A stretch of DNA of 64,000 nucleotides, from the NCBI RefSeq assembly GCF_002283555.1, contig NZ_MVOI01000003.1, forward strand, positions 1,042,798 to 1,106,797, in the 5' to 3' direction. Below, piece after piece: positions 43,175 through 63,350 of this stretch. The translations under genes and the position numbers were made by a program. Within the stretch, counting starts at the first letter, position 1. Every line of letters begins with the position of its first letter. Source of the stretch: Rubrivirga sp. SAORIC476. Its GTDB lineage: Bacteria; Bacteroidota; Rhodothermia; Rhodothermales; Rubricoccaceae. The notes under the pieces were generated by a model. That model was given only the letters and a program-made list of their open reading frames with translations, had not been told where the DNA came from and ran no database searches.

Positions 43175-43204
43175 TTCGACGAAGCGCCGCCCTCGTTCGA
43201 CGAA
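43175..43204 (-). promoter_or_regulatory. Paired TTCGTCGAA palindromes, site A
   Basis: Two perfect copies of the 9 bp palindrome TTCGWCGAA at 43175-43183 and 43196-43204 start 21 bp apart. They lie 84 bp upstream of the epimerase start, in the spacer shared with the GbsR-type gene. The same pair with identical spacing occurs at 55557 and 63321 ahead of other polysaccharide operons. The binding protein is unknown. Confidence 0.65.
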
Positions 43205-43278
43205 CCCGCAACTGGTCCCGACGAGTCCGGGTTTGCGCCGTGTGCCGCAGGCCGACCGGGCGCGACCTTGACGACTCC

Positions 43279-43307
43279 TTGACAATCACGGAAGCGCTTC
43301 CTATCAT
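43279..43307 (+). promoter_or_regulatory. Sigma70-like promoter of GbsR-type regulator
   Basis: TTGACA (43279-43284) and TATCAT (43302-43307) are separated by exactly 17 bp, a near-consensus sigma70 promoter, unlike other promoters in this window. The spacer contains a perfect 12 bp palindrome, GGAAGCGCTTCC (43290-43301). Confidence 0.6.
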
Positions 43308-43316
43308 CTCTCCGAA

Positions 43317-43336
43317 CGTTTGCAACGTTTCAAACG
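43317..43336 (+). promoter_or_regulatory. Inverted repeat CGTTTG-N8-CAAACG, probable operator
   Basis: Arms CGTTTG (43317-43322) and CAAACG (43331-43336) flank AACGTT. The site lies about 10-30 bp after the TATCAT box, covering the expected transcription start, so a protein bound here should block transcription. Autoregulation by the downstream GbsR-type protein is the simplest reading. Confidence 0.55.
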
Positions 43337-43364
43337 ATTAGCAGACGTCCTCCCCGTTCCTTCC

Positions 43365-43853
43365 ATGCCCACCCCCCTCACCCCCGCCCAGCACGACCTC
43401 GTCACCGAGTTCGGGTCGATCTACGAGCAGTACGGGTTCCAGCGCCTCAAGGGCCTCATCGTGGGGCTGCTGTTGGTCCAGCCGGAGCCCCTCTCGCTCG
43501 ACGACATGGCCGAGATGCTCGCCCGCAGCAAAGGCCCCATCTCGACGGCCGTCCGGGACCTCTCCTCGACGGGCCTCCTCCGCAAGGTGGACGGACCCAA
43601 CCGCCGACGCGACTACTACGCCGCCCACCCGGATCTCTTCCTGAACAACTTCAAGCACAACATGGCGATCGTCCGGAAAAACCGCCGGACCGCCGAGCAG
43701 TTCTTGGAGGAGATGGGTGGAGACGAGCAGCACGCCGAGGCCGTCCGCAACCTGGAGCAGATGCGGGCCTTCTACACGCTCATGGAGTCCTTCTACGAGG
43801 ACTTCGCCGAGCGCTGGGAGGCCGAGCCCGCACGCCTCGACGGCCGCGCCTAG
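43365..43853 (+). CDS. GbsR/MarR-type transcriptional regulator
   Basis: Cytosolic winged-helix DNA-binding protein of 162 residues. The helix-turn-helix covers about 40-75 (LSLDDMAEMLARSKGPISTAV, RDLSSTGLLRKV), followed by a wing (GPNRRRDYYA) and a helical dimerisation tail. The RSKGPIS segment is typical of GbsR-like members of the MarR superfamily, which in Bacillus control choline/glycine-betaine genes. The ATG at 43365 is used; an in-frame TTG at 43320 would lie inside the operator. It precedes the TonB-receptor island and is the likely regulator of that island and of itself. Confidence 0.88.
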   Translation: MPTPLTPAQHDLVTEFGSIYEQYGFQRLKGLIVGLLLVQPEPLSLDDMAEMLARSKGPISTAVRDLSSTGLLRKVDGPNRRRDYYAAHPDLFLNNFKHNMAIVRKNRRTAEQFLEEMGGDEQHAEAVRNLEQMRAFYTLMESFYEDFAERWEAEPARLDGRA

Positions 43854-43885
43854 CCCTGCCGGAGATCAGTCCGCTGGCGATGTGA

Positions 43886-43902
43886 GGGGACGCTCAGTCC
43901 CC
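43886..43902 (+). terminator. Short hairpin between regulator and receptor
   Basis: GGGGAC/GTCCCC with a 5-base loop lies 33 bp after the regulator stop and 7 bp before the receptor ATG. It is too short to be confident and could instead affect receptor translation. Confidence 0.3.
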
Positions 43903-43908
43903 GCCCTC

Positions 43909-46335
43909 ATGTACCGTTTGTTCGCGAGCCTCCTCCTCGCCATCGGCCTCGCCTCTGGCGTGCTTGCCCAGGACGCCCGCTTCGAAGGCCGCGTCACCAC
44001 CGACGGCGGCGCCCCCCTCGTCGGCGCCACCGTCCTCATCGACGGCAGCGTCTACGGCGACGCGACCGACGCCGACGGCCGCTACGCCTTCTCTGCCCCG
44101 GCTGGGACGTACACCCTGGGGGCGTCGTTCATCGGGTACCAGGCCGAGCGACGCGAGGTCACCGCCGCACGGGGCCAGACCGTCGTCGAGGACTTCGTCC
44201 TCGCAGAGGCCGCGGCCCAGGCGGGCGAGGTCATCGTGACGGGCGCGAGCCGGACCGCGGAGCGGCTGACCGACAGCCCCGCGACGGTCTCGGTCCTCTC
44301 CGGCGCCGACCTCCAGGCCTTCCCTGGCGTCTCGTACGAGCAGGCGCTCGCGACCGTCAAGGGCGTCGACTTCGTCCGCTCCGGCGTGACGGGCATCGGG
44401 ATCAACGCGCGCGGCTTCAACAGCGCGTTCAACACCAAGATGCTGCTCCTCACCGACGGGCGCCGCCAGATGCTGCCCGGCGCGGGCCTGCCCTTCGCGG
44501 CCATGAACCCGGTCATCAAGGAGGACATTGAGCGCGTCGAGGTCATCCTCGGGCCCAGTTCGGCGCTCTACGGCGCCAACGCGCACAACGGCATCGTCAA
44601 CGTGGTCACGCGCGACCCACGCAACAGCCAGGGCCTGACGGTGGTGGCGTCGGGCGGGGCCGGCGGCGCCGAGAGCTCGGTGTACTCCGCGAGGGGCCGC
44701 TACGCGCAGGCGTTCCTGGACAACCGCTTCGCGTTCAAGGCGACCGGCGAGTTCACCCGGGGCGAGGACTACGCGTTCGTCGACACGGTCTACACCAGCG
44801 TGCCCAGCCCGACGGCCGAGGAGCCCGACTTCGGCGTGGAGCACCTCCGCGGCACCGCCGAGCTGTTCGCCAGCCCGATGGCCGACACCGACGTGGTGCT
44901 CTCCTACGCGGGCAGCCAGAACAGCTACCTCGGGCCCACCAACCTGGGCCGCAACCAGGTCGAGGACTGGACGCTCCACCAACTCCAGCTGCGCGCCGTC
45001 CACCCGCGCGTGTTCGCCCAGGTCTACCAGACGTGGAGCAACTCGGGCGAGACGTACGCGCTCCAGAACTACGCCGCCTTCTCGCGCGCCGGGCTCTCGC
45101 CCGACGCTGCGTTCGCGGCGGCCCGCTTCATCGACAAGAGCCGCCGGACGAACGCCGAGATCCAGGGCAACGTGGAGGTCCAGGGCTTCCGCTTCATCGC
45201 GGGTGCCAACTACGAGCTGGAGACGGCCGTCTCGGAGGGTACCTACCTCTCCGACACCACGGGCGTCGGCGGCCTTGAGTTCGAGCAGTACGGCCTGAGC
45301 GCCCAGGCCGAGCGCGGCTTCGGGCCGGTCCGCGTCGTCGCCGCGGGGCGCTACGACTGGCAGACCAACTACGGCAGCCAGTTCTCGCCCAAGCTCGGCC
45401 TCGTGCTGACGCCCAACGCCGCCAGCAGCGTCCGCCTGACTTACGGGCAGGCCTACGTCGCGCCGACGGTGCTCCAGCAGGAGATCTACATCCCGTCCGG
45501 CGCGGTCGGCACCATCCCGATCGTGATCCGCGGCAACGGGCGTGGGTTCGACACCATCAACGCCGACGGGTCGCCGGGTGCCGGCGTCGCAGCACTGTCT
45601 CCGGAGGTCGTCCGCACCGTCGAGGCGGGCTACCGCGGGCTGTTCGGCCAGCGCCTGTTCGTTGACGTCAACGCGTACCGCTCCACCTCGGAGAACTTCA
45701 TCTCGCCCCTGACGACGGTGCCGGACCTGGTGACGGCCATCGGCGACCAGCCGCTGAGCGGGCCCGAGATCGTCCTCACCTACCAGAACTTCGGCGAGGT
45801 CACCAACTACGGCGCCGACCTCTCGGTGTCCTACGTCGTCTCCGACCAGATCACGGCGACGGCGGTCTACTCCACGTTCTCGGCCGACATCGACGAGGAC
45901 AGCTTCGACCTCAACGGCGACGGCACGGTCTCGCCGAACGAGATCTCGCTCAACACGCCGGGCCACAAGGGCGCGCTCACGCTCACCGCCCGCGACCTCG
46001 GGATGGCCGGCCTCACGGGCGCGCTCACGGTCCGCGGCGTCTCCGAGTACTCGTTCGTCTCGGGCCGGCACTTCGCCAGCACCGAGCAGGAGGGCCAGCG
46101 CGTGATCCTGACCACGCCGGGCGGCAACGTGCCGTTCAACTACAACTACGGCCCGCTGGGCGGCTTCGTCACGACGGACCTGAGCCTCGGCTACCAGTTC
46201 TCGGACGCGCTCTCGCTGGGCGCGTCGGTGACCAACCTGTTCGGCGTCGAGCAGCGCGAGTTCGTCGCCGCGGCCCCCACGCCGCGCTTCTTCACCCTGA
46301 CGCTCCGCACCGACGTGCCCGCGTTCGGACGCTAG
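43909..46335 (+). CDS. TonB-dependent outer-membrane receptor
   Basis: Outer-membrane transporter of 808 residues. Order: signal peptide (to about 20), carboxypeptidase-regulatory-like domain (about 22-100, FEGRVTTDGGAPLVGATVLI), plug domain (about 105-235, EVIVTGASRTAERLTDSPATV; IERVEVILGPSSALYGANAHNGIVNVVT, split at 215), then a 22-strand-type barrel ending FFTLTLRTDVPAFGR. No SusD-like lipoprotein follows, so this is not a SusCD glycan pair. It is more like a receptor for a small organic ligand or metal chelate. It heads an island of acyl-metabolism genes, suggesting a lipid, ester or carboxylate ligand (inference). A GC hairpin follows the stop. Confidence 0.93.
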   Translation: MYRLFASLLLAIGLASGVLAQDARFEGRVTTDGGAPLVGATVLIDGSVYGDATDADGRYAFSAPAGTYTLGASFIGYQAERREVTAARGQTVVEDFVLAEAAAQAGEVIVTGASRTAERLTDSPATVSVLSGADLQAFPGVSYEQALATVKGVDFVRSGVTGIGINARGFNSAFNTKMLLLTDGRRQMLPGAGLPFAAMNPVIKEDIERVEVILGPSSALYGANAHNGIVNVVTRDPRNSQGLTVVASGGAGGAESSVYSARGRYAQAFLDNRFAFKATGEFTRGEDYAFVDTVYTSVPSPTAEEPDFGVEHLRGTAELFASPMADTDVVLSYAGSQNSYLGPTNLGRNQVEDWTLHQLQLRAVHPRVFAQVYQTWSNSGETYALQNYAAFSRAGLSPDAAFAAARFIDKSRRTNAEIQGNVEVQGFRFIAGANYELETAVSEGTYLSDTTGVGGLEFEQYGLSAQAERGFGPVRVVAAGRYDWQTNYGSQFSPKLGLVLTPNAASSVRLTYGQAYVAPTVLQQEIYIPSGAVGTIPIVIRGNGRGFDTINADGSPGAGVAALSPEVVRTVEAGYRGLFGQRLFVDVNAYRSTSENFISPLTTVPDLVTAIGDQPLSGPEIVLTYQNFGEVTNYGADLSVSYVVSDQITATAVYSTFSADIDEDSFDLNGDGTVSPNEISLNTPGHKGALTLTARDLGMAGLTGALTVRGVSEYSFVSGRHFASTEQEGQRVILTTPGGNVPFNYNYGPLGGFVTTDLSLGYQFSDALSLGASVTNLFGVEQREFVAAAPTPRFFTLTLRTDVPAFGR

Positions 46336-46357
46336 TCCTCGGCGCTCTTCTTCCTCC

Positions 46358-46388
46358 CCGCGCCCGCCGGAGCCTCTGGCGGGCGCGG
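46358..46388 (+). terminator. Hairpin terminator after TonB receptor
   Basis: A perfect 11 bp stem (CCGCGCCCGCC/GGCGGGCGCGG) with a 9-base loop lies 22 bp after the receptor stop. Its loop and right arm include one half-site of the GCCTCTGGCG repeat. There is no U-tract, and it ends 14 bp before the next ATG. Confidence 0.5.
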
Positions 46389-46402
46389 TCTACGACTCCA
46401 TC

Positions 46403-47131
46403 ATGCTAGACAACAAAGTGGCCGTCATCACGGGCGGCGCGCAGGGCATCGGCCGCGCCACGTGCGAGCGGTTCGTCCGCGACGGCGCCTCCGTCGTCAT
46501 CGCCGACGTGGCCGACGAGGCAGGCGCCAAACTGGCCGAGGCCCTCGGCGACAAGGCCGTGTTCGTCCACACCGACGTGACCGACGCCGACAGCGCCTCT
46601 GGCGCGATGCAGGCCGCCATAGACCACTTCGGCGGCCTCGATATCGTGGTCAACAACGCGGGCATCACGCGCGACGCGACGCTCAAGAAGATGACCGGCG
46701 ACCAGTTCGACGCCGTCATCAACGTGAACCTGAAGGGCGTGTACCTGTGCACGCAGGCGGCCGTGCCGCACCTCGAAGCGCGCGGCGGGGGCGCGATCCT
46801 GAACGCCGCCAGCGTGGTCGCGCACAACGGCAACTTCGGCCAGACCAACTACGTGGCTACCAAGGCGGGCGTGATCGGGATGACGAAGACGTGGGCGCGC
46901 GAGCTGGGCCGCAAGGGCATCCGCGTCAACGCGGTCGCCCCGGGCTTCATCGCGACCGAGATGGTGCTGACGGTCCCGGAGAAGGTGCTCGACGGCCTGC
47001 GCGGCAAGACGCCGCTGGGCACGCTTGGCCAGCCCGACGACATCGCGGCGGCCTACGCCTTCCTCGCCTCCGACGACGCCGCCTTCATCACGGGCACCTG
47101 CCTCAACGTCGACGGCGGCCTCGTCCTCTAG
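46403..47131 (+). CDS. FabG-like 3-oxoacyl reductase (SDR)
   Basis: Classical SDR of 242 residues close to 3-oxoacyl-ACP/CoA reductases. It has ITGGAQGIGRATCERF, NNAGITRDATLKKM (typical of FabG/PhaB), NVNLKGVYLCTQA, the catalytic Ser in NAASVVAHNG, Tyr/Lys in TNYVATKAGV, and the C-terminal ITGTCLNVDGGLVL. It likely interconverts 3-oxoacyl and 3-hydroxyacyl thioesters with NAD(P)H. It follows the receptor by 67 bp and precedes the KASIII-like gene by 46 bp. An acetoacetyl-CoA reductase role is equally possible. Confidence 0.92.
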   Translation: MLDNKVAVITGGAQGIGRATCERFVRDGASVVIADVADEAGAKLAEALGDKAVFVHTDVTDADSASGAMQAAIDHFGGLDIVVNNAGITRDATLKKMTGDQFDAVINVNLKGVYLCTQAAVPHLEARGGGAILNAASVVAHNGNFGQTNYVATKAGVIGMTKTWARELGRKGIRVNAVAPGFIATEMVLTVPEKVLDGLRGKTPLGTLGQPDDIAAAYAFLASDDAAFITGTCLNVDGGLVL

Positions 47132-47177
47132 TCTCGCCTCGGGCGTCGTCCGGCGCCCGAAGCTCTCCCCTGTGCCC

Positions 47178-48200
47178 ATGCGCCGCGCCCAGATTCTCGG
47201 CACCGGCCTGTACGCCCCCGAGCGCGTCGTCCCGAACGCCTACTTCGACGAGATGTACGGCGAGGACGTGTCCTCCTTCTTGGTCGAGCGCCGCAACATC
47301 CGCGAGCGCCGCTACGCCGCCGATGACCAGGCGACGAGCGACTTGGTCGTGGAAGCGGCCCGCTCAGCCCTGGCCGCCTCTGGCGTCGAGGCGAGCGACC
47401 TCGACCTCGTCATCGTCGCGACCGACACGCCCGACTACCTCTCGCCGTCGACCGCGGCGATCGTGCAGCACAAGCTGGGTGCGATCGGCGCGGGCTCGTT
47501 CGACGTCAACACGGCATGCGCGGGCTTCGTGACGGCGCTCGACATCGCCAACAAGTACATCGCGAGCGACGACCCCGAGCGGCCGCAGTACCGCCGCGTG
47601 CTCGTCGCCGGGGCCTACCTCATGAGCCGGTTCATCGACTACCGGCACAAGAACACCGCGACGCTCTTCGCCGACGGCGCCGGGGCGGTCGTGCTCGGTC
47701 CGGCCTCTGGCGCCAGAGGCCGGGATGCGAGAGGCGTGCTGGCGAGCGACCTGGAGACGCGCGGCGAGTTCGCCGAGCACATGGGGATCTACGTCGGCGG
47801 GGCCGCGGCGCCGGCCTCGCTGGAGCGCGTCGAGGCGCAGGAGCACCTGCTCCAGTTCCGGGAGAAGTTCCCCCGCGAGTTCAACCGCGAGGCGTGGAGC
47901 GCCGTCGCCCGCCGACTGGCGGACCGCATCGGCGTGGCCGTCTCGGACGTGGACCACTGGGTGTTCACCCAGATCAACGTCGAGAGCATCGGCGAGGCGA
48001 TGGACGCGCTGGGGCAGCCGATGGAGAAGGCCGTGCTCGTCATGGACCGCTACGGCTACACCGGCAGCGCCTGCGTCCCGATGGCCCTCGCCGACGCCGA
48101 CGCCCAGGGTCGCTTCCGGCCCGGCGACCTGGTCGTCCTGATCGCCTCGGGCGGCGGCGCGGCCATCGCCGGCCTGGCGCTCCGCTGGGGCACCGACTAG
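47178..48200 (+). CDS. KASIII-like thiolase-fold protein with altered active site
   Basis: Member of the FabH/KASIII superfamily, 340 residues. The nucleophile Cys is present at about 114 (FDVNTACAGFVTALD). The other two catalytic positions differ from FabH: where PHQAN is expected the sequence is VFTQINVES (His replaced by Thr, about 264), and where GNTSA is expected it reads YGYTGSACVP (Asn replaced by Tyr, about 294). Decarboxylative condensation is therefore doubtful; acyl transfer or another thioester reaction is possible. It sits between the FabG-like and symporter genes. The codons around residue 178 contain a perfect 20 bp palindrome shared with other sites in this island. Confidence 0.82.
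   Translation: MRRAQILGTGLYAPERVVPNAYFDEMYGEDVSSFLVERRNIRERRYAADDQATSDLVVEAARSALAASGVEASDLDLVIVATDTPDYLSPSTAAIVQHKLGAIGAGSFDVNTACAGFVTALDIANKYIASDDPERPQYRRVLVAGAYLMSRFIDYRHKNTATLFADGAGAVVLGPASGARGRDARGVLASDLETRGEFAEHMGIYVGGAAAPASLERVEAQEHLLQFREKFPREFNREAWSAVARRLADRIGVAVSDVDHWVFTQINVESIGEAMDALGQPMEKAVLVMDRYGYTGSACVPMALADADAQGRFRPGDLVVLIASGGGAAIAGLALRWGTD
47702..47721. repeat. Family-2 palindrome, 20 bp, coding
   Basis: GGCCTCTGGCGCCAGAGGCC is a perfect 20 bp palindrome inside the KASIII-like gene, encoding Ala-Ser-Gly-Ala-Arg-Gly. Confidence 0.7.
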
Positions 48201-48217
48201 CCTCTGGCGCCAGAGGC
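48200..48217. repeat. Family-2 palindrome, 18 bp, intergenic
   Basis: GCCTCTGGCGCCAGAGGC begins at the last base of the KASIII-like stop codon. It could fold as a hairpin and end or protect the transcript. Confidence 0.65.
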
Positions 48218-48274
48218 CTCCTCTCGGCGCCTCGTTCCCATTCGTCTTCCCACCGCCGCCAGAGGCCTGCATCT

Positions 48275-49750
48275 ATGACCGACGTCGCCATCTCCTGGGC
48301 CTTCTTCCTGGGCTACCTCGCCCTCGTCGGCACGGCGGCGTTCGTCGGCATCCGGCGCGTGAAGAGCTTCACGTCGTTCTCGGTCGGCGACCGCAAGACG
48401 AGCCCGGTCTGGGTGGGGCTCGCGCTCGCGGCCAACCTGACCAGCGCGGCCACGTTCGTCATCAACCCGGGGCTGATCTACCTCTACGGCTTGTCCGGGA
48501 TGCTGGGCTACGCCGTCGCCACGCCCCTGGGCATCCTGCTCGGGCTGACGGTCCTGACGAAGGCGTTCCGCCGCGTGGGCGACCGCACGGCCGCGCTGAC
48601 GGTCCCGCAGTGGATCGCGGACCGCTACGGGAGCCGCTCGCTGCGGTTCTTCTTCGCGGGCCTCTCGCTCCTCCAGATCACGTTTCTCGTCCTGATCGTG
48701 GTCGGGCTGACGCTCGTGCTCTCGAACGTCCTGGCGCTGCCCACACTCGGCGCGATGGCGATCGTGATCGTGATCCCGCTGATCTACGTGATGCTGGGCG
48801 GCGCGAGCGCGCACACGCTGACCAACTCGGTCCAGGCGCTCATCATGATCGCCGTGGCGCTGATGCTGGTCGGCTCCGGCCTGGACCTGCTGCTCGGCGA
48901 GCCCGGACTGCTGGCGCGGCTGGCCGAGATCTCGCCCGTCCTGGCCGAGCCCGTCAACCCCGAGAGCCTTCTGTTCCGGAGCCCGTTCGAGGTGTTCGTG
49001 GCCAACTTCGTGATCGGCGTGGCCGTCATCACGCAGCCGCACGTGATGTCGAAGGCGCTCTACCTGCGCGACGAGCGCGACGTGAACGTCTACCTCGGCG
49101 TCGGCTTCGTGGCGCTGACGCTCTTCTTCTCCGTCCTCGCCATCGGCCTCTACGCCCGCGTCACGCTCACCGGCGACCTGCTCCCGCCCGACCAAGTGGT
49201 GCCGACCTACCTCGTCGAGCAATTCGGTCCCGTCGCCCGGTCGGTCGTCACGGTCGGCCTGGTCGCCGCCGGGTTCTCGACGCTGGAAGGGCTGCTCGTG
49301 GCGCTCTCCACCATCTTCGCCAACGACGTGTACTCGCCGCTGGCGCGGAGCCGCGGCGTGGCGCAGGAAACCATCGAGCGCAAGTCCATCGGGCTGAGCA
49401 AGCTCTTCCTGCTGGCGCTCGCGCCGGTCGTCGCGCTCCTCTCGTGGGGCCAGATCCAGAGCCCCGACCTGTCGGTCGCCATCCTGGCGCAGAACGGCGT
49501 CTACGGGCTGTTCGCGGCTACGTTCGTGCCCATCCTGTTCGGCGTCTTCGTGCCGCGCGTGACCACCTGGGGCGTCTCGGCCGCGGCCGTCGCCGCGCTC
49601 GTCGTCCACTTCGGGATGTACTACGGCGAGATCGGGCCGTACTGGAACAACCCGGCCGTGCCCGCCACCTTCGCGCTGCTGGCCGCGGGCGCCGTCGCCT
49701 CGCTCTCGCTGCTCGTCGCCCGCCGCCCGGCCGAGCCCGCCGCCGCATGA
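48275..49750 (+). CDS. Sodium:solute symporter (SSS family)
   Basis: Inner-membrane Na+-coupled importer of 491 residues with about 13 helices. It shows FSVGDRKTSPVWVGLALAANLTSAATFV, the family sodium-site region, with PQWIADRYGSRSLR, YVMLGGASAHTLTNSVQALIM and GLVAAGFSTLEGLLVALSTI. It is most like the acetate/pantothenate/carboxylate branch; the exact solute is not readable. The 3' end overlaps the acyl-CoA ligase start by 4 bp, so the imported compound is probably the substrate of that ligase, which suggests a carboxylate. Confidence 0.92.
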   Translation: MTDVAISWAFFLGYLALVGTAAFVGIRRVKSFTSFSVGDRKTSPVWVGLALAANLTSAATFVINPGLIYLYGLSGMLGYAVATPLGILLGLTVLTKAFRRVGDRTAALTVPQWIADRYGSRSLRFFFAGLSLLQITFLVLIVVGLTLVLSNVLALPTLGAMAIVIVIPLIYVMLGGASAHTLTNSVQALIMIAVALMLVGSGLDLLLGEPGLLARLAEISPVLAEPVNPESLLFRSPFEVFVANFVIGVAVITQPHVMSKALYLRDERDVNVYLGVGFVALTLFFSVLAIGLYARVTLTGDLLPPDQVVPTYLVEQFGPVARSVVTVGLVAAGFSTLEGLLVALSTIFANDVYSPLARSRGVAQETIERKSIGLSKLFLLALAPVVALLSWGQIQSPDLSVAILAQNGVYGLFAATFVPILFGVFVPRVTTWGVSAAAVAALVVHFGMYYGEIGPYWNNPAVPATFALLAAGAVASLSLLVARRPAEPAAA

Positions 49751-51228: not shown

Positions 51229-51229
51229 C

Positions 51230-55586: not shown

Positions 55587-55589
55587 CAC

Positions 55590-55613
55590 CTCCGCCTCGG
55601 CACCGAGGCGGAG
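55590..55613. repeat. Family-1 palindrome next to site B
   Basis: Arms CTCCGCCTCGG/CCGAGGCGGAG (11 bp) around CA, immediately beside operator pair B in the divergent spacer. Here it is not at a gene end, unlike most copies. Confidence 0.55.
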
Positions 55614-55670
55614 GTGGTGGAACGGCGGTCTGGGGGCCGCGTTGGGGCCACGAACGACTCGACCGCCGCG

Positions 55671-56435
55671 ATGACCCACCCGATCTCTGTCTCCCTGACC
55701 CACCACGGGCGCACGCTCGCCGGCAGCCTCTACGACGCCGGAGCGGACGCGCCGTGGGCGCTGCTGGTCCACGGCTTCGGCGGCTCGCGGATCGGCCCCC
55801 GCCGCCTCTTCGCGCTCCTGGCCGACCGGCTCCGCCAGGCGGGCGTCACCGCCGTCGCCTTCGACCGGCTGGGGCACGGCGAGAGCGACGGCGACTTCTT
55901 CGACATCACCGTCTCCGAGGAGGTCGAGCAGGTTCTCGGCATGCGCCGGTGGGCCGAAGACCGTGCGGGCGGCCCGATCCACCTCGTCGCCCACTCGCTG
56001 GGAGGCGTCGAGACCGCCCTCTCCGCCGCCCGTCGGCCCGATGGCATCGCGTCGCTCGCGCTCTGGGCCCCCGCCGCCGTCTCCGCCGACGACGTGGCCG
56101 AGGGCACCGTGCACGGCCAGTCGACCAATGCTCTCGACACGCACGGTCGCATCGACATCGAGGGACTCGCCCTCGGCCCCGCCTTCGTCGACGACCTCCG
56201 AGGCACCGACCCGTACGACGGGATCGACGCCTACACCGGCCCCGCCCGCATCCACCAGGGGCTGGAGGACGACGTCGTGCCGGTGCGCTACAGCCGTCGC
56301 TACGCCGAGATCTGGGGCGACCCCGACGCCCTGCTCGTGACCTACCCCGACGCCGGCCACACGTGGTCCGCCCTCCCGGAGCGCGAGACGCTGATCGGCA
56401 ACACCGTCGCCGACATCGTCGCCGCCGGTCGGTGA
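55671..56435 (+). CDS. Alpha/beta hydrolase (serine aminopeptidase-like)
   Basis: Cytosolic alpha/beta-fold hydrolase of 254 residues. It has ALLVHGFGGSRIGPRR, VAFDRLGHGESDGDFFD, the nucleophile in HLVAHSLGGVETAL, the acid in IHQGLEDDVVPV, and the His in DAGHTWSAL. It is similar to acyl-esterase/S33-type hydrolases. It lies alone on the plus strand inside the polysaccharide region, divergent from the GT2 operon and convergent with the O-antigen ligase gene. Deacylation of a sugar or lipid intermediate is possible but not shown. Confidence 0.87.
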   Translation: MTHPISVSLTHHGRTLAGSLYDAGADAPWALLVHGFGGSRIGPRRLFALLADRLRQAGVTAVAFDRLGHGESDGDFFDITVSEEVEQVLGMRRWAEDRAGGPIHLVAHSLGGVETALSAARRPDGIASLALWAPAAVSADDVAEGTVHGQSTNALDTHGRIDIEGLALGPAFVDDLRGTDPYDGIDAYTGPARIHQGLEDDVVPVRYSRRYAEIWGDPDALLVTYPDAGHTWSALPERETLIGNTVADIVAAGR

Positions 56436-56441
56436 CCGCCT

Positions 56442-56461
56442 CCGCCTCGGCACCGAGGCGG
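56442..56461. terminator. Family-1 palindrome, bidirectional terminator
   Basis: CCGCCTCGG-CA-CCGAGGCGG fills the 28 bp gap between two convergent stop codons (56435 plus, 56464 minus) and can end both transcripts. Confidence 0.55.
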
Positions 56462-56463
56462 GG

Positions 56464-57918
56464 CTACTCGGGCGGCACGGCCGCCTGCGCGTCCAGTCGG
56501 GGCGCGAGGTAGAGCGCGGCCACGCTGACGGCCACCAGGATGCCCGTCGGCATCTGGCCCAGAACCTGGTTGCCGTAGCTCGCGACCGCGATCCCGCAGA
56601 GCCCGGCGAAGAGCGCCAGCAGCCGCTGCTTCAGCGCCGCGTCGCGCACGCGGAGCAGCCGCCGCAGCGCGCCGCCCAGCAGCGACGCCAGCCCGATCAG
56701 GTACAGCCACAGGCCGACCGGCCCCTGCTCAGCCCAGATCTTGACGTACCACGAGTCGAGCGCCAGCTCCGCCAGGAACGTGCCCGGGCTGAAGCGCTGG
56801 CCCCAGTACCCGCCCGACCCCACGCCGCCGCCGAATGGGCGGCTCGCGAGGTAGGTCTTGAGCTTCTTCTGGTTCTCCAACCGCACCTGCAGGCTTGCGT
56901 TGTCGGAGCCCTCCACGATGGCCGTCCGCATCCGCTGGACCTCGTAGATGCCACTGCCGACGCTCGTGAACCGCAGCGCGCCGTAGACCAGCAGCAGCGC
57001 CGCCATGCCGACCACCAGCAGCCGCCAGTTGCCGCTGAGGAGGAAGTAGACGAAGAAGCCGATCATCGGCACCGCCATCGCTCCGCGCGTGCCGGAGATC
57101 AGCAGGCCATAGAGGCCGAGCAGGCCCGCGATCCAGAGCAGCACCTTGCGTCCGCGTGAGGCGGGGCCGAGCGCCAGAATGATCGCGACCAGCCCAGCGT
57201 GCCCCATCGCCGCGCCGAACTGGCCGGAGTCGGAGTAGAACGAGAACACGCGCAGCTTGCCGAACAGCAGGTGCGTCGACAGGTTGCCGGGCACGTTGAG
57301 CCACGCCTGCTCGGAGCCGTCCAGGCCCACGACCTTCTGCTTGATGCCCCAGAGCGCGCCGACGACCGACCACGCGAGCCACAGCCCCAGCAGCCGGTCC
57401 AGGTCGCGCCGGTCGCGCAGCAGCAGCAGGCACAGCGGGACCGCCAGCACCGGATACAGCGCCACCCCGCGGACGGCGTAGAACCACGCGGCCAGGCTTC
57501 GCGCCTCCGGGTTCACGATCTGGAACAGGTTGTAGGCCATCCAGATCGAGACCGCCCAGACGGCGCCGTTCTTCAGCCGGTCCCAGTCCCACGCGCGGGG
57601 GCGAACGATCACCGCGAGCAGCGTCAGCGCGAGGAACGCGTCCACCAGCAGGCCCGTCGGCGCGGGGACGTAGCGCGTCACGCCGACGCCCACGAACGCG
57701 GCCACGAGCGTCGCCACGAGGCCCCAGCGCGGGTCCAGAAAGACGGCGCGGGCGACGAAGAACGCGGGCGCGAGCGCGACCAGCGCCAGCCCGGCTACGA
57801 CGCCGCCCTTCGCCACGACCAGGCCGAGAACGACGGCCAGGACGACCGTCGCCGCGCCACGCACGAGGCGGGCGGACCACGAGACGGAGCCGGAGGGGAG
57901 GTCGAGCACGGGGGACAT
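56464..57918 (-). CDS. O-antigen ligase/polymerase family membrane protein
   Basis: Polytopic protein of 484 residues with about 12 helices and a large periplasmic loop between them (about 320-400), as in Wzy polymerases and WaaL ligases. The segment LISGTRGAMAVPMIGFFVYF matches the core O-Ag_ligase region, and the loop holds PFGGGVGSGGYWGQRF. It likely joins polysaccharide repeat units or transfers the glycan to an acceptor in the periplasm. It lies 4 bp after the flippase gene, consistent with a Wzx/Wzy pair. Confidence 0.88.
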   Translation of the reverse strand: MSPVLDLPSGSVSWSARLVRGAATVVLAVVLGLVVAKGGVVAGLALVALAPAFFVARAVFLDPRWGLVATLVAAFVGVGVTRYVPAPTGLLVDAFLALTLLAVIVRPRAWDWDRLKNGAVWAVSIWMAYNLFQIVNPEARSLAAWFYAVRGVALYPVLAVPLCLLLLRDRRDLDRLLGLWLAWSVVGALWGIKQKVVGLDGSEQAWLNVPGNLSTHLLFGKLRVFSFYSDSGQFGAAMGHAGLVAIILALGPASRGRKVLLWIAGLLGLYGLLISGTRGAMAVPMIGFFVYFLLSGNWRLLVVGMAALLLVYGALRFTSVGSGIYEVQRMRTAIVEGSDNASLQVRLENQKKLKTYLASRPFGGGVGSGGYWGQRFSPGTFLAELALDSWYVKIWAEQGPVGLWLYLIGLASLLGGALRRLLRVRDAALKQRLLALFAGLCGIAVASYGNQVLGQMPTGILVAVSVAALYLAPRLDAQAAVPPE

Positions 57919-57922
57919 CAGA

Positions 57923-59179
57923 CTACGCGACCTCCGGTATCGGCCGACGCGCGCCGGGCACGAGCGGCACCTCGCGCGCCACCAGCACCCCGCCCACGAC
58001 CACGCCGACCGCCGTCATCCCGACCGTCACCGCGGCCACGCCGGAGACGCCGAACCCGAGCGCCAGCGCGACCGCGTCGCCGCCGAGGTTGGCGGCCAGC
58101 ATCGCGCCCACCTTGACGGTGTTGAGGTGGGGCCGCCCGAGGGCGTCGAGCGCGAGCCCGAGGAAGCGGTCGAGCGGGAGCAGCAGCGCGTAGAGCAGGA
58201 ACCAGCGGAAGGGCGCGGCGGCCTCGGCGTAGGACTCGCCGCCGAGCAGCGTCGTCGCCTCGGTCGCGAACACCCAGCCCAGCGCGGCGGCGGGCAGCAG
58301 CACCAACGTCAGCGTCGCCACGTCGCGGCGGAGGCGGGCGGCGAGCGCGGCCCCGTCGCCCACCCGGGCCGACCGCGCCATCGCGGGGAACGCCGCGCCC
58401 GCGAGCCCCCGGATCGGCACCTCGGCCGCCTCGACGAGCTTCTGGGGGACGCCGTAGAGCGCGACCGCCGCCGGACCGAGGACGGTGCCCAGGATCAGCG
58501 CGTCCGCGCTGCGCAGCAGGTTGGCGCCGACCGTCGTCGCGGCGCTGAAGCGGCCGAAGCGGAGCAGCCGCGCCACGTCGGCACGTCGCGTCTGGCGGAC
58601 CGTCTCTGGCCGCGCCCAGCCCAGCGCGAGCGCACCCAGCGAGACGATGCCGTGCGCCGCCGCGTGGGCCCACGCAAGTGCGCCCAGCGTCACCCCCTCC
58701 CCCATCGCCACGACGGCGCCGACGAACAGGACGCTCAGCGCCAGCCGCAGCGCCAGCACGCGCCCGAACCGCTCCCGGGCCTGCGCCTCCCACGCCGCGA
58801 CCGTGTGCGGCAGCCCGGCCACCAGCAAGACCGGCAGCACGACCCACACGCCGCCGACGACCGATACGACCAGCGCGCCGAGCCCGGCCACGCCCGCCGT
58901 CACCCCGAGGCCGACCGTCCACGCGGCGCCGACGACCCGGTCCGCCTCGGCACGGCCGTGGCCCGACGCCTGCTGGACGAGCGCCGACTGCGCCAGCCCG
59001 CTCCTCAGCATGTCGACGAATGTGGCGACGGTCAGGTAGAGCACCCAGGTGCCGAACGCAGCGGGCGCGAGCGCGCGGGCGACGAGCGCGAACCCGACGA
59101 AGCCGAGCACGGCGCTGGCGGCCTGCGTGGCGAGCGAGAGGGCGCGCGGTCCGCGAGCGAGGGCGAGGAGGCGGCGCAT
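57923..59179 (-). CDS. Polysaccharide flippase (Wzx-like)
   Basis: Membrane protein of 418 residues with about 12-14 helices of the MOP superfamily polysaccharide-export type. It begins ALSLATQAASAVLGFVGFALVARALAP, the conserved start of these flippases, and includes FGRFSAATTVGANLLRSADALILGTVLG. It would move undecaprenyl-linked repeat units across the inner membrane. It is 1 bp after the preceding glycosyltransferase stop and 4 bp before the polymerase/ligase gene. Confidence 0.9.
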   Translation of the reverse strand: MRRLLALARGPRALSLATQAASAVLGFVGFALVARALAPAAFGTWVLYLTVATFVDMLRSGLAQSALVQQASGHGRAEADRVVGAAWTVGLGVTAGVAGLGALVVSVVGGVWVVLPVLLVAGLPHTVAAWEAQARERFGRVLALRLALSVLFVGAVVAMGEGVTLGALAWAHAAAHGIVSLGALALGWARPETVRQTRRADVARLLRFGRFSAATTVGANLLRSADALILGTVLGPAAVALYGVPQKLVEAAEVPIRGLAGAAFPAMARSARVGDGAALAARLRRDVATLTLVLLPAAALGWVFATEATTLLGGESYAEAAAPFRWFLLYALLLPLDRFLGLALDALGRPHLNTVKVGAMLAANLGGDAVALALGFGVSGVAAVTVGMTAVGVVVGGVLVAREVPLVPGARRPIPEVA

Positions 59180-59180
59180 G

Positions 59181-60383
59181 TCAGGCGGCCCGGCGACGCG
59201 GAGCGGCCGGGGCCTGCTCGACGACGGCCGCGAAGGCGCGGGCGCGAGCGGCCCACGTGTTCTGTCGCGCGAAGGCGACGCGGCGGCGGCGCGCAGCCAG
59301 GCCCCGGTCGCGGAGCGCCAGGTCGAGCGCCTGCGAGAAGACCGGGACGTCGGACGCCGTGTAGACGTGCGCCTCCGCGTCGCCGAGCGGCGCGAAGGGC
59401 GTCGTCACCACGGGCCGGCCGGCGGCGAGGTACTCGTTCAGCTTCATCGGGTAGATGCTCCGCGTGAAGCGCGTCACCTGGAACGGGATGATGCCGACGT
59501 CCATCTGCCCCAGGAAGCCGGGCAGGGCGTCGGGCGGGTGCGGACCGGCCAGCGTCACGTTCGCGTGCGCTGCCAGCGCCTCCGCCTCAGGCGCCGTCGC
59601 GCGGCCGACGAACAGGAAGTCGAGGTCGGCCCGCCGCTCGACGAGCGCGCCCAGGAGCGCGTAGTCCACCCGCCCGTCCAGACTGCCGATGAAGCCGACG
59701 CACGGCCGGTCGCCCTCAGGCTGCCACGTAGCCGCCGGGTAGAAGAGGTCGAAGTCGACGCCGTTGGGGACCAGGTGGACGTTGGCGTGCTGTGCGCCCC
59801 GGCTCTCCCGCAGGCCCTCGGACGTGACCACGACGGCGTCCGCGTTCGCCAGGTACTCGGCCTCCAGCCGCGCCCCGTGCTTGCCGACCCACGGCGCGGC
59901 CGCGATCTCGTCGTAGCCGTAGTAGACCCGCGCCCGCTCGCTGAGCTGCCCGACCAGCGGCAGCCCGAGTTGCGGCGCGAACGCCGTCACCACGACAGGG
60001 TCCGTCATCGACAACTCCCGCATCGCGGCGCGGACGACGTGACCGACGATCCGGGCGTTGACCGCCAGCGCGGCGCGGAACGCGGGCCCTTCGTCCATCC
60101 AGCGCGTCGGCAGGACGGGCGGCGGGGTCAGGACGTGGATCGGACCGTGCGGTCCGTTGATGCGGCGCAGGCGGTCCTCCCGGCCAAACATCCGCTCCAG
60201 CGGCGCGCCCCCCCGGCCGAGTGCGGCGCGGGCGGCGTCGGCGAGCGTGTGCGCATAGTCGACGTAGAGCACGCGGTAGTGGGCCGCCAGCGCCTCCATC
60301 AAGCGGACCGTCGACTTGACGTAGTCGCCGTCCCAGGCGGGCTGGGCGAGGCAGACGAGGGCGGGTTTCGGGGAATCAGGCAT
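59181..60383 (-). CDS. Glycosyltransferase, GT-B fold
   Basis: Predicted GT-B transferase of 400 residues with similarity to family 1/4 enzymes. N-terminal LVCLAQPAWDGDYVKSTVRLM; an acceptor-domain segment VYYGYDEIAAAPW; the C-terminal half starts at VGFIGSLDGRVDYALL, with LAGPHPPDALPGFLGQMDVGIIPF split near 310 and PMKLNEYLAAGRPVVTT as the donor-binding motif. The ATG at 60383 is chosen over an upstream ATG at 60410 overlapping a palindrome. It is followed by flippase and polymerase, so it probably builds the repeat unit. Confidence 0.9.
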   Translation of the reverse strand: MPDSPKPALVCLAQPAWDGDYVKSTVRLMEALAAHYRVLYVDYAHTLADAARAALGRGGAPLERMFGREDRLRRINGPHGPIHVLTPPPVLPTRWMDEGPAFRAALAVNARIVGHVVRAAMRELSMTDPVVVTAFAPQLGLPLVGQLSERARVYYGYDEIAAAPWVGKHGARLEAEYLANADAVVVTSEGLRESRGAQHANVHLVPNGVDFDLFYPAATWQPEGDRPCVGFIGSLDGRVDYALLGALVERRADLDFLFVGRATAPEAEALAAHANVTLAGPHPPDALPGFLGQMDVGIIPFQVTRFTRSIYPMKLNEYLAAGRPVVTTPFAPLGDAEAHVYTASDVPVFSQALDLALRDRGLAARRRRVAFARQNTWAARARAFAAVVEQAPAAPRRRAA

Positions 60384-60400
60384 GAGCGTTGGGTCGGTCG

Positions 60401-60416
60401 GCCTCGGCACCGAGGC
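60401..60416 (-). terminator. Family-1 palindrome between wzc-like gene and GT
   Basis: GCCTCGG-CA-CCGAGGC lies between the stop of the Wzc-like gene (60438) and the GT start (60383). It may cause partial termination within the operon. Confidence 0.4.
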
Positions 60417-60437
60417 GGGCGGGGGAGGCGTGTGGGG

Positions 60438-62534
60438 TCAGCGGCTGAACTCGAAGCGCGCGGCGCGCTTGACGGTGCGGCGGAGCCACGAGCGCCGCCG
60501 CGGCACCTCGCCGACCAGCCCTTCCAGGCGGACCGGCTGGGCGCCCGTCAGCACGAGGTGCGGGGCGTGGCCGCTGGCCCGCTCCAGCGCCGACGCCGTG
60601 TGGGCGTCGGCGGTCGCCCAGGAGCGGCTGGCGCGGGCGGCGAGCAGGACCACGTCGGCGTGGGCCAGCAGACCGACCGGCAGCGGCGCGTCCAGGACGG
60701 GCGGCAGTTCCAGGATGGTGAGGTCAGCGTCGGATGGCCCGGCGATGGCGTCGAGGGTCTCGGCCTCGGGGAAGGCGTCGGTCACGGCGTAGGGCGTCGC
60801 GCCGCCGTCGGCGTGGGGGGCGAGGTAGTTGACCGTCCGCCCGCGCGCGGCGAAGCGCTCGGCCAGCCGGGCGGCGACGAAGCCCGCGCCCTCGCCCGCC
60901 TGGCCGCTGGCGACCGCGACGAACTGGGGCTCCCGGGCGTCGCGTTCACGCAGAACGAGCGACACGTTGCGCAGGAACTGGGCGTCGAGCGGCTTCAGGA
61001 GTGCCGGGTCGGCGGGGGCCGTCGGGTAGGCGCCGGCGAGGGGCAGGCCCGAGACCTCGGCGGCGCGCTCGGGCGTCCGCATCGACTGGTCGAACACCTC
61101 GACCGCCAGTAGGCCGCCGACGCACAGCGCCAGCCCGGCCAGGAAGGCGACGACCACGAGCAGCGGCCGCTTCGACGAGTTGGGCCGCGCCGGGCGCTGC
61201 GGCGGCGCGACCACGTCCAGGTTGGCCGCCCGCGCGATGCTCTGCTGCCGCATCCGCGCCAGATTGAGGCTGTGGAGCATCTCCATGTAGGTCCCCTCCG
61301 CGATGTCGACCTCGCGCTCCAGGCTGGAGAGCGTCGAGCCGAGCGGCGCGAACACGTCGTAGACGCGCTGGTACTCGTCGCGCCGCTGGCGCAGGACGGC
61401 CAGGCGGGCGCGGCCCTCGGTGACGCTCGTGGCGTGGTTGAGCCAGGCGCCGGTGAGGGCGCTCCGGGCGACGCCCTGCTCGGAGTTGCTGAGCCGGTGC
61501 AGGCCGCGGACGCTCCCGTTGAGCGCCGCGCGCATCGAGTCAGCCTGGGCGCGGGCGGCGGGGTCGGCCGTGCCGAGCGCCTCGGCGCGGGCCGCGCGGG
61601 CGGTCGCCGCCGAGAGCGACTGGCGCTGCTGCGCCACGGCGTCGCTCTGGATCAGGACCGCCTCGCGCTCGCTCAGGCGTCGCTCGGTGTCGCGCAGCGC
61701 GTTCTCGGCCGCGGCCAGCGCCATCTCCTCCTGCTGCACCTCGTGGTCCAGGCTCTCCTTCTGCGAGGCGACGTACTTCGTCTGCTCGTAGTAGTTGATG
61801 ATCCGGTTGTCGACGCCGAACGCGCGCGTCCCGCCGACGGCGCTCCGCAGGGCGCTGTCGGCCAGGGCGGTCTGCTCTTCGAAGAACTCCACGACGCCGC
61901 CCGTCTGGCGCGTCTTCATGTCGCGGAACTCGTCGATCACGTCGTCCAGAATCAGCTCCAGCACGAGCTGCGCCAGCACCGGGTCGGGCGACGTGTAGCG
62001 GATCTCGACCATGTCGGACCCGCCGACGCGGTTCGCCTGGATGGCGCCCTGGAGCGTGCTCACGTTCACCGGCGACTCGTCGATGTAGAGCGCCGCGTAG
62101 ATCGGGCTCCCGACATCGTCGGCCTCGGCGCTGAGGCGGGCGAGGCGGGCGGCGCTGGCCCCCTCGGTCGCGGACACGGCCCGGACGACGGCGCCAGGCA
62201 CCGTCGGGATCTCGACCTCCTCGGCCAGCCGCAGTCGGCCGTCGGCGCGGCGGGCGATCAGTTGGAGGGCGACGCGCTCGACCGTCTCGCGGCTCTTGAT
62301 GAGCTGGATCAGGTTGTCGAACGCCGTCTGCGTGGTCAGGTAGTCGACCCGGCTGCCGCTCTCGGAGTCGATGGAGTAGCCGGACACGAAGCCCGTGTAG
62401 AGGGTTGTCGAGGCGGCGTACTCGCGGGGCAGGTCGCGCGTGGCGAGGAAGACGACGGCGGCCATGCCGAGGGGCACGGCGGTCAGCAGCAGCCAGTGGC
62501 GGCCGAGCAGCCGCAGGACGTGGAGCAGGCTCAT
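60438..62534 (-). CDS. Wzc-like chain-length protein with degenerate kinase domain
   Basis: Polysaccharide co-polymerase of 698 residues. The N-terminal helix (about 13-32), Wzz-type periplasmic domain, long coiled-coil (about 250-430), and second helix (about 457-480, preceded by a Pro-rich stretch) are as in Wzc. The cytoplasmic part from about 495 corresponds to the BY-kinase, but the Walker A reads SGQAGEGAGFVA (about 543-554), where the family has GEGKT, so the nucleotide-binding Lys and Thr are missing. The Walker B-like segment is LTILELPPVLD, and there is no Tyr-rich tail. It probably controls chain length or export without kinase activity. It overlaps the TolC-like gene by 4 bp. Confidence 0.88.
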   Translation of the reverse strand: MSLLHVLRLLGRHWLLLTAVPLGMAAVVFLATRDLPREYAASTTLYTGFVSGYSIDSESGSRVDYLTTQTAFDNLIQLIKSRETVERVALQLIARRADGRLRLAEEVEIPTVPGAVVRAVSATEGASAARLARLSAEADDVGSPIYAALYIDESPVNVSTLQGAIQANRVGGSDMVEIRYTSPDPVLAQLVLELILDDVIDEFRDMKTRQTGGVVEFFEEQTALADSALRSAVGGTRAFGVDNRIINYYEQTKYVASQKESLDHEVQQEEMALAAAENALRDTERRLSEREAVLIQSDAVAQQRQSLSAATARAARAEALGTADPAARAQADSMRAALNGSVRGLHRLSNSEQGVARSALTGAWLNHATSVTEGRARLAVLRQRRDEYQRVYDVFAPLGSTLSSLEREVDIAEGTYMEMLHSLNLARMRQQSIARAANLDVVAPPQRPARPNSSKRPLLVVVAFLAGLALCVGGLLAVEVFDQSMRTPERAAEVSGLPLAGAYPTAPADPALLKPLDAQFLRNVSLVLRERDAREPQFVAVASGQAGEGAGFVAARLAERFAARGRTVNYLAPHADGGATPYAVTDAFPEAETLDAIAGPSDADLTILELPPVLDAPLPVGLLAHADVVLLAARASRSWATADAHTASALERASGHAPHLVLTGAQPVRLEGLVGEVPRRRSWLRRTVKRAARFEFSR

Positions 62535-63259
62535 CGACCCGGGGCGCTGGCGACGGCCGCCGGGGCGGCGGTCGGGGCGGCGGCCTGCGCGGTCAGCGCC
62601 GACAGCGTGCCGCCGCACAGGCGGTCGAGTTGTCCGTAGGCCGTCAGGTAGTCGGTGCGCGCCGTCTCGAAGGCGGCCTGCGCCTCGGCGGCGATCTGGT
62701 CGACGCGCGCCAGCTCGCCCACGGCGACGTCGCCCTGCACGAACTCGGCCTCGGCCATCGCCCGGTGCGTCCGCGCGGACTCCATGCCGCCGGAGCGGAC
62801 GCCCACGAGGCGGTACGCGAGTTCGGTCCGCCGGTAGAGCGCGATCACGACCAGGTCCAGCTCTTCGTCGGCCTCGGCCTGGCGAGCGCGCGACTGCGCC
62901 AGCTCGGCCTCGGCCTGCCGCGCCTCGTGGCGCCGCCCGAGCACGTCGTACAGCGACAGCCGCACGCTCACGCCCACGGTCGCGCCGACCGACAGCTGGT
63001 CCACCAGGTCGTTGCCATACGTCCCGGCCGTCGCCCCGACGTTGACGCCCAGGTTGTCGGTCCAGGCGCTGCGCGTCCGGTCCAGCTGGGCCTCGTTCTT
63101 GGCGACTGTCGCCGCCGCGTAGCGGACGGACGGGGACTGACGGTGGACCGCAGCGAGGACGGTGTCCAGCGTGGGGAGGGCCGGCAGGCCGTCGTCGGCC
63201 TGGGCGTGAGGGGCGGCCGCAGGGAGCGCGAGCGCGAGCAGGAGAAGGAAGCGATGCAT
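62531..63259 (-). CDS. Half-length TolC-like outer-membrane efflux protein
   Basis: Exported protein of 242 residues with signal peptide (MHRFLLLLALALPAAAPHAQ). It resembles one TolC/OEP repeat: LDTVLAAVHRQSPSVRYAAATV, a barrel-like stretch VGATVGVSVRLSLYDVLGRR, then long helices with EARQAEAELAQSRARQAEA and VDQIAAEAQAAFETARTDYLTAYGQLDRL (split at 200). Complete TolC proteins have two such repeats and over 400 residues, so this is about half length. It is first of the operon and 4 bp overlapped with the Wzc-like gene. It may replace Wza as the outer-membrane part, as an oligomer of half subunits (inference). Confidence 0.8.
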   Translation of the reverse strand: MHRFLLLLALALPAAAPHAQADDGLPALPTLDTVLAAVHRQSPSVRYAAATVAKNEAQLDRTRSAWTDNLGVNVGATAGTYGNDLVDQLSVGATVGVSVRLSLYDVLGRRHEARQAEAELAQSRARQAEADEELDLVVIALYRRTELAYRLVGVRSGGMESARTHRAMAEAEFVQGDVAVGELARVDQIAAEAQAAFETARTDYLTAYGQLDRLCGGTLSALTAQAAAPTAAPAAVASAPGR

Positions 63260-63320
63260 CAGGGTGTGGTTGGCTGACCGATCGCAACGTCCCCCGTCCT
63301 CTCTCTTTCTCCGGCCGCGT

Positions 63321-63350
63321 TTCGACGAACGCCCCGCCCGCTTCGACGAA
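63321..63350 (-). promoter_or_regulatory. Paired TTCGTCGAA palindromes, site C
   Basis: Perfect copies at 63321-63329 and 63342-63350, 21 bp start to start, 62 bp upstream of the TolC-like gene and downstream of the ugd terminator. This is the head of the operon with the wzc-like, GT, flippase and polymerase genes. Confidence 0.65.

Follow-up and report, generated by a model that had tools for sequence, protein, structure and literature searches.

The DNA analyzed here is a 64,000-nt window of the genome of Rubrivirga sp. SAORIC476, which comprises 4,480,430 bases in 19 contigs and is labeled G000 in our comparisons. The window carries three minus-strand polysaccharide units, each headed by a closely spaced pair of 9-bp repeats that we propose to be an operator. 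The pairs and the genes that follow them are listed below in window coordinates; L034 is the stretch starting at window position 64001, and +31 and +35 are counted from the last base of the promoter-proximal repeat.

43175 to 43204, minus strand: putative operator 1, TTCGTCGAA-N12-TTCGTCGAA in the minus-strand reading, 84 bp 5′ of the epimerase gene
43140 to 43145, minus strand: predicted −10 box of the operator 1 promoter, GATTCT, with A at +31 and T at +35
41988 to 43091, minus strand: NAD-dependent epimerase/dehydratase (PF01370), head of unit 1
41347 to 41931, minus strand: hexapeptide acyltransferase (PF00132), unit 1
40199 to 41350, minus strand: glycosyltransferase family 2 (PF13641), unit 1
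55557 to 55586, minus strand: putative operator 2, TTCGTCGAA-N12-TTCGTCGAA, 59 bp 5′ of the glycosyltransferase gene
55522 to 55527, minus strand: predicted −10 box of the operator 2 promoter, GATCCT
54512 to 55498, minus strand: glycosyltransferase family 2 (PF00535), head of unit 2
53355 to 54515, minus strand: glycosyltransferase family 2 (PF13641), unit 2
52222 to 53307, minus strand: glycosyltransferase group 1 (PF00534), unit 2
63405 to 63439, minus strand: intrinsic terminator-like hairpin (16-pair stem) with a T tail, just 5′ of operator 3
63321 to 63350, minus strand: putative operator 3, TTCGTCGAA-N12-TTCGTCGAA, 62 bp 5′ of the outer-membrane protein gene
63286 to 63291, minus strand: predicted −10 box of the operator 3 promoter, GACGTT
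62531 to 63259, minus strand: outer membrane efflux/TolC-like protein (PF02321), head of unit 3
60438 to 62534, minus strand: Wzz/Wzc-like chain-length protein, unit 3 (PF13807, 26.6 bits; PF02706, 21.4 bits; each slightly under its curated cut-off)
59181 to 60383, minus strand: glycosyltransferase (PF13692), unit 3
57923 to 59179, minus strand: Wzx-like flippase (PF13440), unit 3
56464 to 57918, minus strand: Wzy-like polymerase/ligase (PF04932), unit 3, used as the cluster marker
63504 to 64000, minus strand: UDP-glucose/GDP-mannose dehydrogenase gene, the part that falls inside the window, with the start codon in L034:955; the N-terminal 318 residues (L034:1-955) were scanned

A preliminary description of this DNA had reported six perfect copies of the pattern TTCGWCGAA, a fixed 21-bp spacing within pairs, and no further perfect pair; scans of the window and of the whole genome bore this out. 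The six copies in the window lie exactly at the places listed earlier (shuffled sequences had 0.35 on average and never more than 2) and make up three pairs, at 43175, 55557, and 63321, whose two members start 21 bp from each other. When up to 3 mismatches were allowed in the window, the pair was found at the same three places, together with one overlapping half-match at 43196. The exact TTCGTCGAA-N12-TTCGTCGAA arrangement occurs at only 3 places in the genome, all inside one 20-kb part of the window, and the backwards-read control pattern of the pair had 0 matches in the whole genome. In a relaxed genome scan (≤3 mismatches, gap of 12), the best match outside the cluster had 2 mismatches (C3:1147615) and the others had 3, and a search of the same genome with TTSGTCGA-N12-14-TTSGTCGA returned nothing beyond the three pairs and the fourth array described below. 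The bare pair pattern was found in at least 118 stretches from many phyla when all bacteria were searched, so it has a background elsewhere.

Every pair lies on the minus strand, and the distances to the start codons (84, 59, and 62 bp for operators 1, 2, and 3) agree with the 59 to 84 bp upstream of minus-strand polysaccharide genes given originally. The downstream genes had been named as encoding an epimerase, a family 2 glycosyltransferase, and a TolC-like/Wzc pair, and Pfam matches (PF01370, PF00535, and PF02321) uphold those names, with the Wzz/GNVR-like matches just under the curated cut-offs. A mechanically called open reading frame (ORF) on the plus strand, 55497 to 56435, overlaps site 2; its start is likely the in-frame ATG at 55671, which would leave site 2 intergenic. 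Directly beside operator 2 there is also one copy of a 20-bp palindrome, CCGCCTCGGYRCCGAGGCGG, that occurs at 12 places in the window at ≤2 mismatches (shuffles, mean of 0.04), for example, 17906, 23883, 55592, and 56442, and that we read as a dispersed hairpin element. Terminator-like sites such as that preceding operator 3 numbered 5 in the 12 kb scanned, against a shuffle mean of 1.6.

The preliminary description had treated each 9-bp repeat as a palindrome and the pair as two dimer sites, two helical turns apart, that are bound cooperatively. Eight of the nine positions of TTCGTCGAA are indeed symmetric, but the ninth, central base gives each copy a direction: all copies in the window read TTCGTCGAA on the minus (coding) strand, and with the orientation-neutral TTCGWCGAA pattern both copies had the same direction in 12/12 pairs from 60 genomes (our own and 59 relatives), which makes them direct repeats rather than two palindromes. 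The surroundings of the repeat are likewise asymmetric. Among 63 half-sites taken from pairs with ≤2 mismatches, the 5′ side is G/C rich with G preferred (G at −3 in 46; C or G at −2 in 28 and 25; G or A at −1 in 34 and 17), and the first 3′ base is mostly a purine. On the strength of orientation and flanks, we rejected palindromic dimer sites, which we consider highly improbable. When TTCGTCGAA-N{0,30}-TTCGTCGAA was searched for in 114 genomes of the order, it was found at 30 places, with a gap of 12 in 20, a gap of 11 in 2, and gaps scattered from 3 to 30 in the remaining 8 (backwards control, 3 matches).

The published half-site consensus for the LytTR family of DNA-binding domains is [TA][AC][CA]GTTN[AG][TG]. 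The 63 half-sites agree with it in part: at both T's (61 and 62), at the eighth position (G in 60), and at the ninth (T in 61). The commonest form in the family of the genome studied is gcGTTCGTC, and the half-sites are closer to CCGTTCGTC, the core bound by AlgR, the LytTR response regulator of exopolysaccharide in the AlgZR system of Pseudomonas aeruginosa, than to that consensus (AlgR core as given in the cited part of PMC4064291). The same part of PMC4064291 describes LytTR sites as imperfect direct repeats of 8 to 13 bp, about 12 bp apart, and the pairs found here are direct repeats of about 9 bp at about that distance. In orientation, 9-12-9 spacing, and half-site sequence, each pair fits one LytTR-type site made of two direct half-sites.

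To describe the promoters, we anchored each site on the last base of the promoter-proximal repeat and used the 27 sites in fetched stretches that had ≤2 mismatches and a gap of 11 or 12, leaving out pairs with a further repeat after them, reverse-strand readings, pairs with a gap of 13, and sites <60 bases from the end of a stretch. An A at +31 together with a T at +35 was present at 22/27 sites, including 11/11 in the own family (f1), and at 13/16 sites in a thinned set, whereas in 20,000 trials of random row shifts the count never passed 10 for the 27 sites or 8 for the thinned 16; sites that are related do not count as independent, and the thinned set still contains the own genome and G051, which share orthologous units. 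An A and a T four positions apart match what we take to be A−11 and T−7 of a −10 box, and on that assignment the repeats would lie at about −71 to −63 and −50 to −42. This fixed spacing appears to place the operator just upstream of the −35 region, as for an activator. A sigma-70 consensus scan of 52000 to 64000 found no promoter. According to the cited part of PMC6193735, LytTR sites consist of 9-bp repeats, which are 12 bp apart in most cases and 11 or 13 bp apart in a minority, with 10 bp as the commonest distance upstream of −35. Aligning the half-site on its GTTxGT core, a register that we chose, puts the end of the repeat 35 bp from A−11, as in the published 10 + 6 + 17 layout.

The same geometry bears on two other readings of the pair. 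It could be a repressor operator, such that the regulator blocks the promoters until a signal relieves the block: the sign of regulation is not readable from the sequence, and AlgR also represses rhlA in biofilms (cited part of PMC4064291). In the predicted geometry, however, the repeats lie upstream of −35 and not over the −10 box or the start, and the repeats of the LytTR Regulatory System (LRS) described in the cited part of PMC6193735, which lie just upstream of −35, serve activation, so that we regard repression as unlikely. Alternatively, the nearly self-complementary repeats might act as RNA, forming a leader hairpin for antitermination or attenuation, given that the TTCG of one copy can base pair with the CGAA of the other. 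Leader antitermination is used by exopolysaccharide operons elsewhere. Against this, triple arrays and copies such as TTGGTCGAA that lack a compensating change do not fit the hairpin required, and the conserved A/T pair, if it is a −10 box, puts the repeats upstream of the transcript. We rejected the RNA hairpin on this promoter geometry and consider it extremely improbable.

Past the end of the window the cluster continues into L034, where a fourth, degenerate array and the genes for a candidate regulatory system are found.

L034:1020-1781, minus strand: bacterial sugar transferase (PF02397)
L034:1817-3844, minus strand: DUF4842/DUF4114 gene, past the window end
L034:3927-3977 (67927 to 67977 in the window frame), minus strand: putative operator 4, a degenerate array, TTCGTCGAG-N13-TTCGTCGAA-N11-TTGGTCGAA, 83 bp 5′ of the DUF4842/DUF4114 gene
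L034:3986-4345, minus strand: lone receiver protein
L034:4428-7988, plus strand: hybrid kinase with PAS domains, HisKA, HATPase, receiver, and Hpt
L034:7985-8698, plus strand: response regulator with an N-terminal receiver and a C-terminal LytTR domain

The hybrid kinase and the receiver-LytTR regulator are thus encoded 4.4 to 8.7 kb past the window end, and the two genes share 4 bases at the start of the regulator gene. Both regulator domains score above the curated cut-offs (PF00072, 66.6 bits against 30.2; PF04397, 62.8 bits against 22.6), and, by eye, the translations seem to have intact motifs for the kinase, receiver, Hpt, and regulator. Searched against solved structures, the LytTR domain by itself had no significant match (best E value, 0.12). 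The regulator, described as unknown before, now has a strong candidate in this protein encoded next to the cluster. The proposal that a single regulator governs several exopolysaccharide units is still the best reading for this genome, with the correction that there are four promoters rather than three.

We counted conservation over the four units in G000 and two relatives, G004 and G007 (12 pairwise comparisons). Identical positions amounted to 212/216 in the repeats, 78/141 in the spacer, 79/108 in the −10 stretch, 156/324 in the stretch between, and 133/360 in the 30 bp upstream; because the sites were chosen by motif, part of the repeat identity reflects selection, but their placement before orthologous genes does not. 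The operators precede the same four unit heads in all three genomes and three of the four in G051, a member of another family. At the place orthologous to operator 1 there is a 1-mismatch pair in G004 and G007 and an exact pair in G051; at that of operator 2, the pair is exact in G004 and G007 and has 1 mismatch in G051; and at that of operator 3, it is exact in G004 and G007, while in G051 a pair with 2 mismatches stands one gene later, before Wzc. G051 has the biosynthetic genes in the same order, with 36 to 68% protein identity, and the kinase and regulator at the other end; its pairs, each with 0 to 2 mismatches, precede the DUF4842, GT2 (glycosyltransferase family 2), and epimerase genes, Wzc, and also the sugar-transferase gene. 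Two expectations of the preliminary description, that the pair would be more conserved than the flanking DNA and would recur upstream of orthologous units, therefore hold in these relatives.

Between unit 2 and operator 1 the own genome carries about 9 kb of unrelated plus-strand genes (43365 to 52156: a MarR-like gene, a TonB receptor, a reductase, a ketoacyl synthase III, a symporter, an AMP-binding enzyme, and a hydrolase). The corresponding distance in G004 is only about 0.7 kb, and the 9 kb looks like an insertion into the cluster.

The computed properties of the 30-bp element, namely, the pair itself, its specificity within the genome, its direction and spacing, the promoter geometry, the orthologous positions, and the linkage to a LytTR gene, lead us to conclude that a LytTR-family response regulator very probably uses it as its operator in activating one exopolysaccharide cluster. 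From the sequence we infer binding, the sign of regulation, the phosphorelay, and a signal along the following lines. Each 9-bp repeat (gcGTTCGTCGAA in the own family) would bind one LytTR domain, and the two repeats, two helical turns apart, would bind a regulator dimer on one face of the DNA. With the proximal repeat ending at about −42 and the −10 box (A−11, T−7) at a fixed distance, the bound dimer would lie against the −35 region and recruit RNA polymerase to promoters that have no recognizable −35 element. The most likely regulator is the receiver-LytTR protein encoded next to the cluster, which would stand at the end of a phosphorelay running through the adjacent hybrid kinase, and the four promoters, those of the DUF4842, TolC/Wzc/Wzx/Wzy, glycosyltransferase, and epimerase units, would be switched on together.

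We then compared the distribution of the regulator, the pair, and the cluster over the 114 genomes, counting the Wzy marker at an E value of 1e-20 and defining a LytTR clade as LytTR-domain relatives at ≥86 bits, a cut-off set after the list had been seen, which weakens the counts based on it. The clade is present in 18/114 genomes and the exact pair in 14/114, with 8 genomes common to both (Fisher P = 1.4e-4, not corrected for kinship); the regulator gene and the exact pair share a contig in G000, G004, G007, G039, G051, and G083 and are on separate contigs in G036 and G098. The cluster Wzy occurs in six genomes (G000, G004, G007, G051, G058, and G072), all of which have the clade, against 12/108 of the others (Fisher P = 7e-6, again not corrected for kinship). 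Repeats of this period are found in all six, those in G058 and G072 being degenerate variants only, in the fetched cluster stretches, such as TTCGTCGAT-N12-TTCGTCGAT and TTCGTCGAC-N12-TTCGTCGAA. As a control, the relaxed TTSGTCGA-N12-14-TTSGTCGA pattern, which has one place each in G058 and G072, was compared with the fetched stretches of other genomes: it has none in G011, G025, G036 (C93), G019, G030, G096, G097, and G111, and in G101 and G109 it picks up nothing beyond the exact pairs already known. The three members of the own genus among the 114 genomes are without the pair, the clade, and the cluster. A composite search with 3 mismatches matched 86/114 genomes and looks mostly like chance; among the matches listed, we considered one-mismatch places in G007, G019, G030, and G074 and further places in G058, G072, and G031. 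Those in G019 and G030 lie away from the regulator stretches and have the A/T geometry, and G074 is without the clade.

Several observations weigh against our conclusion. The first two positions of the LytTR consensus are unmatched, and its fourth-position G is present in only 34/63 half-sites. Five of the 27 sites are without the A/T geometry (G009, G039, G017, G083, and G100). Ten of the 18 clade-bearing genomes have no exact pair, and in regulator-flanking stretches from 11 genomes (G011, G025, G036, G019, G030, G058 [C46], G096, G097, G111, G072 [C244], and G098 [C60]) the best pair score was ≤12.3, within or close to what five shuffles of each stretch gave, compared with 25 to 43 in stretches with a known pair. 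Only 10 of the 20 exact sites precede polysaccharide genes (three in G000, two each in G004, G007, and G051, and one in G039), so that the anticipated concentration of relatives' matches before polysaccharide or envelope genes holds for half of them; the other ten precede an unnamed protein family (G098 to G101), FIST-domain genes (G075), or small genes without a Pfam match (G083) or have no clear target (G009, G036, and G109). Finally, 6 of the 14 exact-pair genomes (G009, G075, G099, G100, G101, and G109) are without the clade. In five of these the site is <3 kb from a contig end, while that of G101 (96% complete) is internal; the A/T geometry is present in G075, G099, G101, and G109 and absent in G009 and G100. 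Either another regulator shares the site in these genomes or the gene was missed or lost.

These six genomes raise the possibility that some other regulator, either a second LytTR protein or a member of a different family, binds this operator and that the neighboring LytTR gene has other targets. The own genome encodes six LytTR proteins, and of the five other than the cluster-linked regulator, one is 45% identical to it overall; in addition, the MarR-like gene at 43365 (PF12802, below the cut-off) adjoins operator 1. The linked LytTR gene is, however, the only close match common to G000, G004, G007, and G051 (E value, 1e-10), further LytTR matches reaching at most 48.3 bits in G004 and G051 and there being none in G007, and the layout of the pair is that of LytTR sites. 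We rejected the MarR-like neighbor as the regulator, its domain match being below the cut-off and its protein never the best match of any gene listed beside the relatives' operators. Overall, we think it quite unlikely that a different regulator is responsible, and we retain the linked receiver-LytTR protein as the candidate.

Beyond the cluster, the same pair stands before one unnamed protein family (42 to 66% identical) in G098, G099, G100, and G101 and before adjacent FIST_N and FIST_C genes in G075 (L140:15382-16512, L142:2278-2763, L143:91-690, L135:19403-19915, and L137:1555-2677). This second class of targets, seen mainly in genomes in which we did not find the LytTR clade, is followed by a hybrid kinase gene in two genomes (G098 and G075) and by a receiver gene in one (G101). 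In G039 (L072:8100-9518), the pair precedes genes for a UDP-GlcNAc 2-epimerase and then a YaiO-type barrel, and the LytTR gene is about 10 kb away; this is a different polysaccharide locus under the same operator, without the A+31/T+35 geometry. Variant repeats are also present in G031: TTCGTCGCA-N12-TTCGTCGCA at L308:7579-7608, with a related LytTR gene about 1.2 kb away, and, elsewhere, a triple TTCGTCGAT/C array at L309:8628-8678. They are possibly divergent operators of a LytTR paralogue.

By sequence, the system looks like a classical LytTR two-component regulon. Operators of the AgrA, VirR, ComE, and HdrR/BrsR type, as far as the cited parts of the sources describe them, have the same 9-12-9 direct repeats just upstream of −35, a position that is predicted here; the published repeats are imperfect, whereas the repeat described here is nearly invariant (TTCGTCGAA). 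In an LRS the LytTR regulator is co-encoded with a membrane inhibitor, while its partner here is a hybrid kinase, and the regulator has both marks of a classical response regulator, a receiver-LytTR architecture and a kinase encoded alongside. The likeness to AlgR lies in the core sequence, gcGTTCGTC of the own family differing from CCGTTCGTC by one base. AlgR sites, in the cited part of PMC4064291, are not necessarily paired with a 12-bp spacing, whereas one pair or array heads each cluster unit here. An orthologue of AlgR would come with an AlgZ-type kinase, and the kinase adjacent to the regulator here is a PAS hybrid kinase with Hpt. Since AlgR is already known as a LytTR regulator of exopolysaccharide, the kind of system is known. 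In the literature searched, outside of which lie most subscription journals, we did not meet this regulon, its operator, or its promoter geometry in Rhodothermales, found no paper on LytTR together with Rhodothermota, and saw little in print on the control of exopolysaccharide in Rhodothermales; among the matches listed for TTCGTCGAA as a text string, all look unrelated by title.

Taken together, the phosphorelay, the LytTR regulator, and the near-invariant operator-promoter may form one module that accompanies a single exopolysaccharide cluster across three Rhodothermales families, the same promoter type having been recruited elsewhere in the order to other targets, including a FIST/hybrid-kinase signaling operon, sometimes where the regulator was not found; we consider the chances of this broader proposal to be evenly balanced. 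Three repeated words have in this way become a testable regulon that has a candidate regulator and a candidate kinase, four promoters whose transcription starts are predicted, and relatives in which it can be checked. The near-invariant sites would also lend themselves to structural studies of direct-repeat recognition by LytTR domains. For the organism, a single sensor could switch on the whole sugar coat at once, and if the module proposal is true, this would be a lineage-wide switch for a coat or biofilm whose members can be listed from sequence alone.

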